Positions 14,555 to 19,104 of a stretch of DNA of 64,000 nucleotides are shown in pieces. The DNA is taken from assembly GCF_004025585.1 (NCBI RefSeq), contig NZ_QTZO01000012.1, forward strand, positions 1 to 64,000. Reading direction: 5' to 3'. The translations under genes and the position numbers were made by a program. This DNA comes from Pseudodesulfovibrio sp. S3 (GTDB taxonomy: Bacteria; Desulfobacterota; Desulfovibrionia; Desulfovibrionales; Desulfovibrionaceae). Under the pieces are notes generated by a model. That model searched no databases. It saw only the letters and a list, made by a program, of their open reading frames with translations, and was not told where the DNA came from. The first letter of the stretch is position 1, and each line of letters opens with the position of its first letter.

Positions 14555-15550
14555 TCAGGCTTCTGCAAATATCTCCCGAATCTCCTTGATGTCCGAGGTC
14601 AGGCCAAGGGCGCACATGAGGCGTATCCGGGCCTTGGGACCGCCGAGCCGCCCAGCCATGATGACGCCCTTTGATTTCAGGTCGGCCCCGCCGCCAGGGT
14701 ATCCATAGATGGGCCAGACTCCGCCTTCGATACAGCGGGTGGTCAAGACCACGGGCACCCGTGCCTGCAGACAGGTTTCTATGCCTTCGACCATGGCCGG
14801 GGGGACATTCCCGGCTCCGAATCCTTCGATGACAATTCCTTTTGCCCCAATGCTTATTGCATGATCGAGAAGTGATCGGTCAATGCCGGTATAGGCAGTG
14901 ATGAGGGGTACTTCCGGGACAATGTTCTCGGGGCTGATCTTGCGGCGCGGGGAGGGGGTGGAGTTGCGTTTGGCCAGGATCACGGACTCTCCGGCAACGT
15001 AGCCGACCACGCCCGCCTCGCGGGATTCAAAGGCGTCCACGTTCAGGGAGTTGACCTTGACCGCTTCGCGCGCGGCAAAGATGCGGTCGGTCATGAGGAT
15101 GCAAGCGCCGACGCCCGGGGGCAGGGGGAGTAGGCAGGCCCGGATGGTGTTGGCCAGATTGCGGATGCCGTCGTACCCGGATTCGGAATAGTAGCGCATG
15201 GACCCGGTCAGGATGACGGGCTTGTCGGAGTCGATGATCAGGTCGCACATGTAGGCTGTTTCGGCCAGGGTGTCGGTGCCGTGCAGCACCACCGCGCCGA
15301 GGACGTTCTCCTGCTTCAGGGCCGTTTCCACGTCGCGGGCCAGCCGGAACATATCCTTGGGGGTCATGTGAGGACTTGGCTTGTCCGACCACAGGATCGG
15401 GCGCAGGGCAACATCCGCTTCCGACGGTTTGAATTGGTTGAGCAGGGCTTCGAAGTTGCCGCCGGGAGCCACGCCGTCACTGCCCTCGACCGGGGACATG
15501 CCGATGGTTCCTCCAGTAAAAAATACTACTATTTCAGCTTTTTTTGTCAT
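14555..15550 (-). CDS. L-asparaginase
   Basis: This 331-residue type I/II asparaginase hydrolyses asparagine to aspartate and ammonia. Both catalytic threonine motifs are present: FTGGTIGMS near the N-terminus and VLHGTDTLAETAY in the middle. No signal peptide is seen, which suggests a cytoplasmic enzyme. It follows the selenoprotein gene by 40 bases on the same strand, downstream of the nitrogen-regulation genes, though co-transcription is only possible, not shown. Confidence 0.93.
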   Translation of the reverse strand: MTKKAEIVVFFTGGTIGMSPVEGSDGVAPGGNFEALLNQFKPSEADVALRPILWSDKPSPHMTPKDMFRLARDVETALKQENVLGAVVLHGTDTLAETAYMCDLIIDSDKPVILTGSMRYYSESGYDGIRNLANTIRACLLPLPPGVGACILMTDRIFAAREAVKVNSLNVDAFESREAGVVGYVAGESVILAKRNSTPSPRRKISPENIVPEVPLITAYTGIDRSLLDHAISIGAKGIVIEGFGAGNVPPAMVEGIETCLQARVPVVLTTRCIEGGVWPIYGYPGGGADLKSKGVIMAGRLGGPKARIRLMCALGLTSDIKEIREIFAEA

Positions 15551-15590
15551 GTCTCATGCTTGTTGCGGTTGGTTGCGGTCGTTTGTTGAC

Positions 15591-16202
15591 TCAGCTTGGA
15601 ATAACACTTGCCGCTTGTTGCAGGGCCTTGCGGATGACTTCCTCGTGCACGGCCCCGGTGATGGGTGGCTGGCCGGGGATGAGGAAGGTCGGAATGGCGG
15701 TGACACCGGCCGCCCGTGCAGCCATGGACCCTTCGGCCACGGTGCCTGCATGGACCCTTTCATCGAGGGCGGTTTTCAACGCGTAGGTATCCAGTCCGCA
15801 CCGGACCGCCTCATCCAGGATGACCGACAGGTCTCCGATGTTCCGGCCGTCAGTGAAATACGCCTCGAATATGCGCCCGTGAAAGGCCTGGAAGGCTCCG
15901 GCGTCCCTGGCGAACTCGGCGGCTTCAAGGGCGAGCCGTGAATTGGCGAGCAGGGTCATCTCTTTGAACCGGATGCCGTAGGGCTTGCCCCGTTGGTTGC
16001 AGGACATGGTCACCTGGTCGATGTCAATTTGATCGAAGAGTTCGGTCATGATCCGCCCCTGGGGTGGGGTGTCCGGGTGTATCTCATGGGGAATCCAGGT
16101 CTCCTCTATGTCGAACTCGTTCTTGAAGTGGTCGACAATGCCCTTGCCGACAAAGCAGAACGGTCAGATGAAATCCGAAAATATGGTGAGCTTGATCGGC
16201 AT
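15591..16202 (-). CDS. Selenocysteine-containing DsbA/FrnE-like oxidoreductase
   Basis: Read from the ATG at 16202, the frame gives MPIKLTIFSDFI, then TGA, then PFCFVGKG, and continues without another stop to 15591 (203 residues). The TGA (16164-16166) falls exactly where DsbA/FrnE proteins have the first Cys of their CPxC redox motif, so it most probably encodes selenocysteine (UPFC). Upstream there is AAAGGACGG as ribosome site. The downstream part (PHEIHPDTPPQGR; then residues to the end) is FrnE-like, a thioredoxin-fold family of dithiol oxidoreductases. A conventional caller would start at 16049 and lose the active site. The possible alternative is a nonsense mutation, but the continuing coding sequence on both sides argues against it. 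Confidence 0.88.
16139..16166 (-). promoter_or_regulatory. TGA selenocysteine codon and candidate SECIS hairpin
   Basis: Starting seven bases after the TGA, the mRNA can form UGC-CUUUG-like pairing: UGCUUUG with CAAG(G)GCA around a UCGG loop, one G bulged. Bacterial SECIS elements are small hairpins just downstream of the UGA with a G-rich apical loop, which this resembles. The loop begins about 14 bases after the UGA, slightly close. Confidence 0.55.
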
Positions 16203-16292
16203 GGCCCGTCCTTTGGGTAACGTTTTCTCTACTCTAAGGATGGCACTTGAAAAGTAAAGTCGTTTCAGGGCGTGGTCTGCGCCGTAGATGCC

Positions 16293-18926
16293 TCACTGTG
16301 CCTTGGCCGCTTGCAGCAGGGCCTGCTTCAGCAGGTTGATCCGTTCCGTGTCGAGCAGCCGTTGGCCGTCCAGGGTGCGGACGTGGAATATGTCGGCGGC
16401 CCTGCCCTTGATGGTGGTGATCTTGGCCAGGTGGATGGACAGGGAGTGGTCGGCCAAGGTGCGGGCCATGTCAAAGAGAAACCCGGTCCGGTCCGTGGCG
16501 GCCACTTCGACCACGGTGTAGAAATCGCTTGTCTTGTTTTCGATGGACACCAGCGGGCGGAGCTTGGGGCCGGTGCGTCCCCTGGTCAGCGGCGAGTTGC
16601 GCCGCTCTTCCAGGCGCGCTGCCAGATCGAGTTTGTTGACCAGGGCGTACCCGATGGAACGGCTGACGCGGGCCCAGACCTCTTCGAGATAGAGGTTTTC
16701 AGGTGGTTCGTTCACGGTGAAGACATCCACCACCGTGCCGTCTTTCCAAGTGAAGATGTCGGCGGCCAGGATGTTCAGGCCGTGCAGGGAGATGGCTCCG
16801 GCCACGGTGGCGAACAGGCCTTGTTGGTCCATGGCGGCAATGGTCAGTTCATAGGTGTTTTCCGCCTTGCCCGGTGCGGCTTCGATGAAATTGACTCCTT
16901 TGCCGCCGATGGAGGAGGGTTTGCGTATGCGGTCTTCGGCCACGCCGTCCCTGAGCCGTTTTGCCAAACGGATGTGTGCGGCGATTGCCGTTGGAGTGAG
17001 GGCCAGAAAGGCACGATGGGGCATGGCCTGCACTGCCGCGCTGACAAGGGCCGAGTCCTGATCCGAGGCGGAGATGAACACGGCGCTTTTGGCGTGGGAC
17101 AGGTGTTTGGCGGCGTCCGGCTCTGACAGGGGACCGTGCTCAAGGAGGTTGCGGACCTTGAAATAGAGTTCGCCGAACAGGGAGCGGGTCCAGGAATTCC
17201 AGGCGCGCGGGCCGGTGGCCATGGAATCGGCCACGGACAGAAGGTAGAGCATGTCCAGTCGTTCGGGCGTGGCCACAATCCCGGCGACTTCGGCGGCCAC
17301 ACGTTCGTCCGACAAGTCGCGCCGGGTTGCGGCCTTGGGGAGGAGCAGGTGGTGTTCCACCAGGAAAGCCACATCGTCGATGACCTGTTGTTCCCGTTCG
17401 TAGATGGTCAGAACCTCACGGGCGATATCGGCACCGGCCTTGGAGTGGCTCGGTTCGCCCTTGCCCAGGTCGTGAAAAAAACCGGCCAGGATCAGCCGCT
17501 TTGGGTCAGGGATTCGGGCTGCCAGTTCGCCTGTCCAGTCCGAGTCGTCGGACAGGAAGCTGGACAGAAGGGCAACGGTAGCCAGGGTATGCCTTCCTAC
17601 GGGGTGGACGTGGTAGTCGTTGAACTGGATGAGGTGTTCCACGTCGCCGAATTCCGGGAAGAGGGCAGGCAGCAGGCGGGTTTCGAGCAGCCCCTCGCAG
17701 GCCACGCCGCAGTGCGGGGCCATGAAGATTTCCACCAGTATGGACAGGGTCTCTGCACGGGCCACGAGCCTGCCTGCGAACCGGCCGGGATTACGTCGGA
17801 TGATGCGGCGTGCGCCCCAGGTCAGGGGCAGCCCGCTGCGGGCGGATTCCAGGAATGCGCCCAGTACGTTGCCAGCGGTTACAGCCGACTGGCTCTTGAA
17901 AAACAGGCCCTCGGGGCAGGCTGCGATGTTGCGGATGGAGAGCTTTGGCAGCGGAGCGGGGTGCTTTTCGGGAAAGCCCTCCTGGAACATGGCTTCGCGC
18001 ATGGTCTTGATGCGGGTCATGGCCTGGTGCAGCCGGGAGAGGAAGAACTCCACGGCCCGACCCGTGTCCTGGGGGGATGCGTCCTTGACCGCAAAACCCA
18101 TGAGTCGTGCCGTGGGCGGTTGGAGGTCAAAGAACAGCCGGTCGTTCTTGCGCCCCGCTGCCAGGTGCAGGGCCGTGCGTACCCGGTTCAGAAAGGCCTG
18201 GTCATCGCGAAGGCGCGAGAATTCCTCGGGCAGGAAGACCGGTTTCAGGCCCGTTGTTTCGAGCACGCGTCGCAGCCAGAACACCTGCTGGCCGTCGCGC
18301 AATCCGCCGAGTCCGTTTTTCAGTTCGGGTTCGAGCAGGCCGGAGGCGTCACCGTACTGCCGGGCGCGTGACCTGTTGTGATCGCGCAGGCTCCGGGCAA
18401 AAAAAGTGCCCGTCTTCTTGAGGACCTTGGCTTCAAAGTCGGTTTGGAACAGGTCGAAGACCTCGGCGTCTCCGGCCAGGGGGCGGGCGTCCATGAGCGA
18501 GGCCAGAACCTGGAAATCCTTTTTGGACAGCGAGACGCAGTCCGAGATGGTGCGCACGCCGTGGCCCAGGTCAAGGCCGAGATCCCAGAGCGGGAAGAGC
18601 AGGGTCTTGATGAAGGGTTCGGCCCCTGCGGGGATGCGCTGTTTGAACAGGACCAGTACGTCCACGTCCGAGCCTGGACAGAGTCTTCCTCGACCATATC
18701 CACCCACGGCGACCAGGGCAAAGGCGAATTTTTGTGCCCCGGCTTCCCTGATGCGGTCCCGGAAGTAGCGATCAACCAGATGGGTGTACTCCCAGGCGAA
18801 CCCGCCCACGGAACCGGCTTTGGCCCGCTTCCACAGATCAGCCCTGGCCTGTTTCAGCTTGACGGCGGAGTCGGGCAGGTGGCTGTCTGGTCGCATGGGA
18901 TGAACCTGGGGCGTCAAGGGTTGCAT
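16293..18926 (-). CDS. glnD: PII uridylyltransferase / uridylyl-removing enzyme
   Basis: GlnD senses glutamine and adds or removes UMP on PII. The nucleotidyltransferase motif (VGGYGRGRLCPGSDVDVL) lies near residue 80, the HD domain (GFFHDLGKGEPSHS) is central, and two ACT domains end the protein (TIAAMDQQGLFATVAG; VAATDRTGFLFDMA). The ATG at 18926 is used; another at 18896 is equally possible, and the frame is open to 19025. It sits directly downstream of glnK, its substrate, so amtB-glnK-glnD form one functional unit. Confidence 0.94.
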   Translation of the reverse strand: MQPLTPQVHPMRPDSHLPDSAVKLKQARADLWKRAKAGSVGGFAWEYTHLVDRYFRDRIREAGAQKFAFALVAVGGYGRGRLCPGSDVDVLVLFKQRIPAGAEPFIKTLLFPLWDLGLDLGHGVRTISDCVSLSKKDFQVLASLMDARPLAGDAEVFDLFQTDFEAKVLKKTGTFFARSLRDHNRSRARQYGDASGLLEPELKNGLGGLRDGQQVFWLRRVLETTGLKPVFLPEEFSRLRDDQAFLNRVRTALHLAAGRKNDRLFFDLQPPTARLMGFAVKDASPQDTGRAVEFFLSRLHQAMTRIKTMREAMFQEGFPEKHPAPLPKLSIRNIAACPEGLFFKSQSAVTAGNVLGAFLESARSGLPLTWGARRIIRRNPGRFAGRLVARAETLSILVEIFMAPHCGVACEGLLETRLLPALFPEFGDVEHLIQFNDYHVHPVGRHTLATVALLSSFLSDDSDWTGELAARIPDPKRLILAGFFHDLGKGEPSHSKAGADIAREVLTIYEREQQVIDDVAFLVEHHLLLPKAATRRDLSDERVAAEVAGIVATPERLDMLYLLSVADSMATGPRAWNSWTRSLFGELYFKVRNLLEHGPLSEPDAAKHLSHAKSAVFISASDQDSALVSAAVQAMPHRAFLALTPTAIAAHIRLAKRLRDGVAEDRIRKPSSIGGKGVNFIEAAPGKAENTYELTIAAMDQQGLFATVAGAISLHGLNILAADIFTWKDGTVVDVFTVNEPPENLYLEEVWARVSRSIGYALVNKLDLAARLEERRNSPLTRGRTGPKLRPLVSIENKTSDFYTVVEVAATDRTGFLFDMARTLADHSLSIHLAKITTIKGRAADIFHVRTLDGQRLLDTERINLLKQALLQAAKAQ

Positions 18927-19104
18927 GACAAGATGGGAAAAAAGGCGGTCGGGGGCCTTTCCATTCCCCCGACCGCTGGCCGGCCTTGGGTCAGGCCGGT
19001 TCCGGGCAGGCGTCGGGACTCTCAAACCTCGCGTGCGGCCCGGGAGAATCGGCCCGGAATCGTCCGGGACGATGGTGTTCTAGATGTCCGGGATGGCCGG
19101 CCGG

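Follow-up and report, generated by a model that had tools for sequence, protein, structure and literature searches.

The window analysed here, a 64,000-nt stretch of Pseudodesulfovibrio sp. S3 (contig NZ_QTZO01000012.1, positions 1 to 64,000), contains a reverse-strand gene of the FrnE/DsbA-like type with a TGA codon at the place of the first cysteine of its redox motif. Does this codon end a protein, mark a decayed gene, or specify selenocysteine (Sec)? We hold with high confidence that the product of this gene is a cytosolic FrnE-type DsbA-like thiol-disulfide oxidoreductase, in which the first active-site Cys is replaced by Sec through SelB and a hairpin. The basis of this reading is the frame, the exchange of Sec and Cys at one codon, a covarying hairpin, the genes for Sec decoding, and the predicted fold.

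Reading frame and gene product

Translation of the reverse-strand frame 15591-16202 gives MPIKLTIFSDFI, followed by a stop and then by PFCFVG and the remainder of the protein, the TGA at 16164-16166 being the sole internal stop (Table 1). When this TGA is read as a residue, the product matches the DSBA family PF01323 with 78.7 bits (cut-off 25.6), and the only Cys residues besides Sec13 are found at positions 16, 68, and 135. The list of open reading frames contains only 15591..16049 in this frame (152 aa, ATG); the mechanical call thus begins at 16049 and the active site of the FrnE-type protein is lost. Reading the TGA as Sec corrects the start site of frnE and restores the active site of the enzyme. 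The first-pass annotation had placed the TGA at the first Cys of a CPxC motif, with coding sequence of the family on both sides, a ribosome site at the upstream ATG, and a standard gene call that starts at 16049 without the catalytic site; the translation and the Cys homologues agree with the first point, the aligned frames of relatives and the PF01323 match with the second, and the AAAGGA motif and the list of open reading frames bear out the other two.

It is very improbable that UGA terminates and that translation from the ATG at 16049 yields a shorter protein: a 152-aa frame with an ATG does start there, but its product would be without both active-site residues and without the first strand and first helix of the fold, coding conservation extends past the TGA as far upstream as the ATG at 16202, and the SECIS-like hairpin described below lies upstream of 16049. 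In the full-length product, the N-terminus (read by eye) enters the first strand directly with no signal-like stretch, for which reason a cytosolic role appears likely.

Table 1. Features of the frnE locus and its neighbours in the window
Feature	Position	Strand	Remarks and basis
glnD-like PII uridylyltransferase	16293..19025	-	upstream of frnE, same strand; PF08335
AAAGGA, likely ribosome-binding site	16209..16214	-	6 nt before ATG 16200-16202; sequence
ATG, start of full-length product	16200..16202	-	sequence; aligned frames of relatives begin there in most rows
frnE-type gene, predicted selenoprotein	15591..16202	-	203 residues, Sec13; terminal stop TGA 15591-15593; translation and PF01323
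In-frame TGA, predicted Sec	16164..16166	-	residue 13, first of UPFC; TGA/Cys exchange in relatives
TGC, Cys16	16155..16157	-	second of redox pair; invariant in 57-row alignment A4
SECIS-like hairpin	16131..16151	-	stem 7-8 bp, loop AGGGCAU (16138-16144), starts 12 nt after TGA; pairing and covariation
Internal ATG	16047..16049	-	start of truncated 152-aa ORF in mechanical call; ORF list
Pro171 codon	15690..15692	-	invariant in alignment A4
ansA-like L-asparaginase	14555..15550	-	40 nt downstream of frnE; PF00710 and PF17763

The codon at the active site in relatives

Of 118 genomes (S3 included) searched at the protein level, 32 gave a match, and loci were taken from 30 of them (G041 and G082, with 38.5 and 24 bits, were left out of this set). 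Among the 30 loci, i.e., the S3 gene and 29 relatives, 23 have TGA as the active-site codon and 7 have a Cys codon. Named genomes were scanned with an alignment from which the TGA and everything before it had been removed; this gave 188 relatives, of which 80 were kept (the same scan with a single protein as query returned no matches). TGA was found in 65 of these 80 loci and Cys in 13, and the codon was masked in two (L114, L121); five of the 80 (L046-L049 and L075) are second records of relatives, and without them the counts are 62 TGA, 11 Cys, and 2 masked. According to the record titles, which may misname metagenome bins, the Sec forms belong to Bacillota (25), Thermodesulfobacteriota (16), Nitrospirota (6), Myxococcota (5), Actinomycetota (4), Chloroflexota (4), Armatimonadota (1), and Pseudomonadota (1), with 3 unplaced. 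In a sample of 395 genomes of the phylum, 99 had a match (S3 included); among the 77 matches other than S3 with at least 73 bits, exactly one TGA (at any position) was present in 64, no stop in 13, and TAA or TAG in none. The Sec form is widespread, with TGA at the active site in 65 of the 80 named-genome loci and, probably, in the 64 of the 77 strong matches of the phylum sample.

Further in-frame stops before the terminal one, which the first-pass annotation had named as grounds for abandoning its reading, were absent from 29 of the 30 loci, and none of the 30 frames contained TAA or TAG. Only in L042 does a second TGA follow, at residue 196; this one is probably the terminator of L042, because the FrnE-type family ends there. 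The possibility that a Cys codon decayed or was misread as TGA in a dead gene is even less credible than early termination: the intact Cys codon in 7 of the 30 loci does point to a functional Cys form in the genus, but 22 of the 29 relative loci and 65 of the 80 named-genome loci share this TGA, a recurrence that refutes decay or error, and the remaining frame is intact and aligned, with no TAA or TAG in the 30 loci.

L042-L044, which form a more distant group with UPWC from other families of the order, also carry TGA. In Oceanirhabdus (L106:2995-3045), the motif is UGFC instead of UPFC and the hairpin is kept. For alignment A4, to which the invariant positions of Table 1 refer, 57 rows were selected out of 75 candidate references; L054, which had been read beyond a stop, was omitted from A4 and also from the Ile-codon count and the synonymous-codon test given below.

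A conserved hairpin downstream of the TGA

The RNA after the UGA can form the hairpin GUCGGCA-AGGGCAU-UGUCGAC with 7 pairs, or 8 if an additional A-U, which leaves a GGGCA loop, is counted. The 49-nt region of the TGA folds with -16.2 kcal/mol (z -2.2; 4 of 200 shuffles were as good), which is only moderate support for a SECIS element from the S3 sequence by itself; the 21-nt hairpin alone folds with -9.5 kcal/mol. In the synonymous-codon test the S3 gene alone gave a p value of 0.05, and the case for a SECIS element therefore rests on the set of sequences.

Hairpin alignment A2 comprised 77 of the 80 distinct Sec sequences (the UPWC loci L042-L044 were left out). Six pairs are held in 98.9% of its 462 cells, compared with 17.3-55.8% for structures slid along the alignment; 12 cells were changed on both sides versus 0.8 in shuffles, none of 500 shuffles being as high, and RNAalifold arrived at these six pairs without guidance. 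Next to the loop, the pair is A-U in 65 of the 77 sequences, G-C in 7, C-G in 3, U-A in 1, and unpaired in 1. In 17 Cys sequences 65.7% of the cells are paired, and the same controls were unremarkable. As the hairpin is inside coding sequence, it was also compared with draws of synonymous codons: 81 Sec rows have 5.93 of the 6 pairs versus 4.15 expected and are complete in 76, and 18 Cys rows have 3.94 versus 3.40 expected and are complete in 2. At least one of the six pairs is missing in the other 5 of the 81 Sec rows (the worst, L104, misses two). The two complete Cys rows are L024 (region L024:2005-2055, genome G018) and L095 (L095:2998-3048); the hairpin thus also occurs outside the Sec forms. 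A preference at a single codon was also seen: of the 63 Sec rows with Ile at codon +9, 55 use ATT, compared with 35% of 846 Ile codons elsewhere in the genes; within the genus ATT stands there in 15 of 17 Sec rows versus 53 of 159 elsewhere, and the genus Cys rows have ATC (5), CTC (1), and ATT (1).

Constraints on bacterial SECIS elements are listed in the available text of a recent review (PMC13188914): a loop of 3-9 nt, an upper stem of 4-16 bp, a G in the first two loop positions, an apical loop 16-37 nt away from the TGA, and an energy of at most -7.5 kcal/mol. The S3 hairpin has a stem of 8 bp with a 5-nt loop, or of 7 bp with a 7-nt loop, the loop reads (A)GGGCA(U), the distance from TGA to apical loop is 19-20 nt, and both the hairpin (-9.5) and the 49-nt region (-16.2) are below the energy limit. 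In the 7-nt loop, column 3 is G in all 80 distinct Sec sequences and column 2 in 49 of them. A search of positions 15400-16400 against Rfam matched no family. The small G-loop hairpin that the first-pass annotation had noticed after the TGA is thus seen again in the Sec sequences, where it covaries, and it falls within the constraints given in the available text of PMC13188914.

In the UPWC loci L042, L043, and L044, 6, 6, and 7 of 7 positions are paired in the fixed register, and the free fold of L042 and L044 prefers another structure. The Sec forms L104, L115, and L118 from Chloroflexi have different hairpin sequences (an inner C-G pair, loops other than GGG), and L104, with two of the six pairs broken, may use another register.

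Genes for Sec decoding

The first-pass annotation had proposed to look for the Sec machinery, and all of its parts that were searched are present in the S3 genome: a tRNA-Sec (79.3 bits; identified by ARAGORN as tRNA-SeC with anticodon TCA), SelB (395 bits), SelA (606 bits), and SelD (330 bits), the last with an in-frame TGA near its N-terminus (L013). Three FdhA-like genes exceeded the cut-off, and in two of them (L126, L127) a TGA precedes His, the usual arrangement in Sec FdhA; the third (L128) has no TGA. Read by eye, a G-loop hairpin follows the TGA in the SelD gene (GGG loop about 20 nt downstream) and in the two TGA-bearing FdhA genes (GGC loop about 24 nt after the TGA), all of them outside the window. 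SelA was found in 30 of the 31 relatives with an FrnE match; the SelA search gave no match in G080, a TGA-bearing relative from the UPWC group whose genome is 94% complete.

Readthrough of UGA as a residue other than Sec (Trp or Cys) is formally possible but deserves next to no weight, as all 20 loci with a readable codon other than TGA (7 and 13 from two sets that share second records) encode Cys at this position and none encodes Trp, the gene's own terminator is TGA, and tRNA-Sec, SelA, SelB, and SelD are all present.

Family, predicted fold, and proposed reaction

In a sequence search of the PDB, the best match was FrnE of Deinococcus radiodurans (DR_0659; PDB 5cnw, 5co3, 5coh, 5cp1, 5xwh) with an E-value of 1.2e-19, its CPWC-type motif being aligned with UPFC. 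The structure predicted from 57 input sequences has a mean pLDDT of 97.3 and a DsbA-like thioredoxin fold, with Sec13 and Cys16 at the start of helix 1 (residues 14-26), as expected for the CXXC-type motif of the FrnE subfamily; the invariant Pro171, which we take to be the cis-proline position of the DsbA-like family, comes before a strand. The five best matches of this model in a fold search of the PDB were all Deinococcus FrnE (E 4.3e-15 to 1.8e-14). DsbM, 2-hydroxychromene-2-carboxylate isomerase, and kappa glutathione transferase came next, with the DsbA-like architecture in common but only 13-19% identity and weaker E-values than FrnE. No NCBIfam model reached its cut-off on the FrnE-type protein. 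Among the NCBIfam models matched, only one is named as a selenoprotein, the Rcas_1661 family thioredoxin-like (seleno)lipoprotein NF041057; it scored 38.8 bits, far under its cut-off of 190 bits, and covered residues 86-194 only, with the active site outside.

The Deinococcus protein is predicted to be cytoplasmic, like the S3 protein, but has Cys where the latter has the predicted Sec. It also has a C-terminal CXXXXC at residues 239-244, which is absent from the 203-residue S3 protein. According to the consulted part of PMC8945050, this motif occurs in many but not all FrnE members; it is no strict requirement, because the FrnE proteins of D. maricopensis and S. roseofulvus are also without it.

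For the S3 protein we infer Sec insertion, a cytosolic location, and the reaction with its substrates and electron donor. SelA and SelD would make Sec; SelB with Sec-tRNA(Sec) would bind the hairpin as the ribosome meets the UGA, and Sec13 would be inserted as in the established bacterial pathway. By the chemistry of FrnE and DsbA, the selenolate of Sec13 at the start of helix 1 may then attack the disulfide of a substrate, and Cys16 would resolve the selenenylsulfide. D. radiodurans FrnE is described, in the same part of PMC8945050, as a cytoplasmic disulfide reductase in which the C-terminal CXXXXC helps regenerate the active site; since the S3 protein ends before such a motif, another donor would have to regenerate it.

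Gene neighbourhood

The ansA-like gene, probably co-transcribed with frnE, lies directly downstream of it in all 24 loci of the genus (L015-L038), in Sec and Cys forms alike, and was not seen beside frnE in the distant loci (flanks up to 3 kb). A glnD-like gene is found upstream in 13 of the 24 genus loci within 1.5 kb of flank. In distant loci the commonest recurring neighbour, named by eye, is aldo/keto reductase-like (8 loci), and a thioredoxin reductase-like neighbour, also named by eye, occurs in 3. As a clue to the function of FrnE the neighbours were set aside, as no convincing partner emerged and an operon with an asparaginase gives no redox story.

Alternation of Sec and Cys within Pseudodesulfovibrio

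Of the 24 loci of the genus, 17 are Sec and 7 are Cys forms. A single clade of the seven Cys forms was rejected (p-AU 2.3e-5), four changes being needed. When a Sec relative of the same family was used to root the tree, 4 changes were needed with Sec as the ancestral state and 6 with Cys; across 1000 bootstrap trees, ancestral Sec was cheaper in 877, tied in 122, and dearer in 1. When a change from Sec to Cys was charged double, ancestral Cys became slightly cheaper (6 vs 7). Sec and Cys have been interchanged at least about four times in the genus, and the direction from Sec to Cys is the more likely one. SelA is present in all 7 Cys carriers and in all 16 Sec carriers other than S3 itself.

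The complete hairpin of the Cys form L024, which has a TGC codon, looks like a SECIS relic in its sequence: its six pairs give p 0.012 against synonymous choice, with p of about 0.01 reached by 2 of the 18 Cys rows, uncorrected. The hairpins of L024 and L095 look as if these genes had been recently converted from Sec forms. We lean towards repeated and recent replacement of Sec by Cys in one genus whose members have retained the Sec machinery, traces of the SECIS surviving in at least one Cys form. If true, a family of thiol-oxidoreductases would join the small number with documented loss of Sec to Cys. The related Sec (17) and Cys (7) loci, with SelA-positive carriers, also offer a natural panel for studying what Sec buys the enzyme. 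A description of such alternation of FrnE in Pseudodesulfovibrio was not found in the literature searched, mostly non-subscription papers.

Comparison with known selenoproteins

DsbA-like UXXC selenoproteins of COG2761 have been in print since 2005, as far as the accessible parts of the literature show. The Sargasso Sea study reports them in its available text (PMC1088965), and COG2761 is given as the COG of Deinococcus frnE in the portion seen of PMC1978522. From the excerpts at hand, four DsbA-like selenoproteins, one of them ('DSBA-like') in Desulfovibrio desulfuricans, are listed in PMC1794560, which counts 0 Sec-to-Cys and 1 Cys-to-Sec events for the DsbA-like family; DsbA 1-3 appear in a list of selenoproteins (PMC2398784), and two DsbA-like sequences are reported for Asgard archaea (PMC11227280). 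The 2026 review, in the sections available, names a 'DsbA-like protein form 1' (PF01323, UxxC) and describes Sec-to-Cys substitutions as rare and primarily found in FdhA and SelD (PMC13188914). The name FrnE was not found in the accessible text of PMC13188914, PMC1794560, PMC2398784, PMC9312934, and PMC1088965. Searches of the available literature for FrnE with selenoprotein and selenocysteine gave, judged by titles, no paper about bacterial FrnE, and selenoprotein with Pseudodesulfovibrio gave only work on mercury methylation.

The selenocysteine-containing FrnE/DsbA-like oxidoreductase proposed by the first-pass annotation is thus supported at the level of sequence, with Cys at the homologous position in 7 of 30 loci, in 13 of 80 named-genome loci, and in Deinococcus FrnE. 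The family is already known, because COG2761 UXXC selenoproteins have been published and one is listed for Desulfovibrio desulfuricans; the S3 protein is well supported as a predicted new example of a selenoprotein family on record and not as a new kind of gene. What is modestly new is the repeated exchange of Sec and Cys in FrnE within one genus that keeps SelA. The S3 protein, with PF01323 and UPFC, corresponds to 'DsbA-like form 1' as defined in the available text by PF01323 and UxxC, an identity at the subfamily level that COG and motif suggest. With the published DsbA-like UXXC selenoproteins, as far as they are described in the parts consulted, it has in common the PF01323 domain, the (here predicted) Sec in the first position of the motif, a SECIS-like element directly downstream, and Cys homologues.
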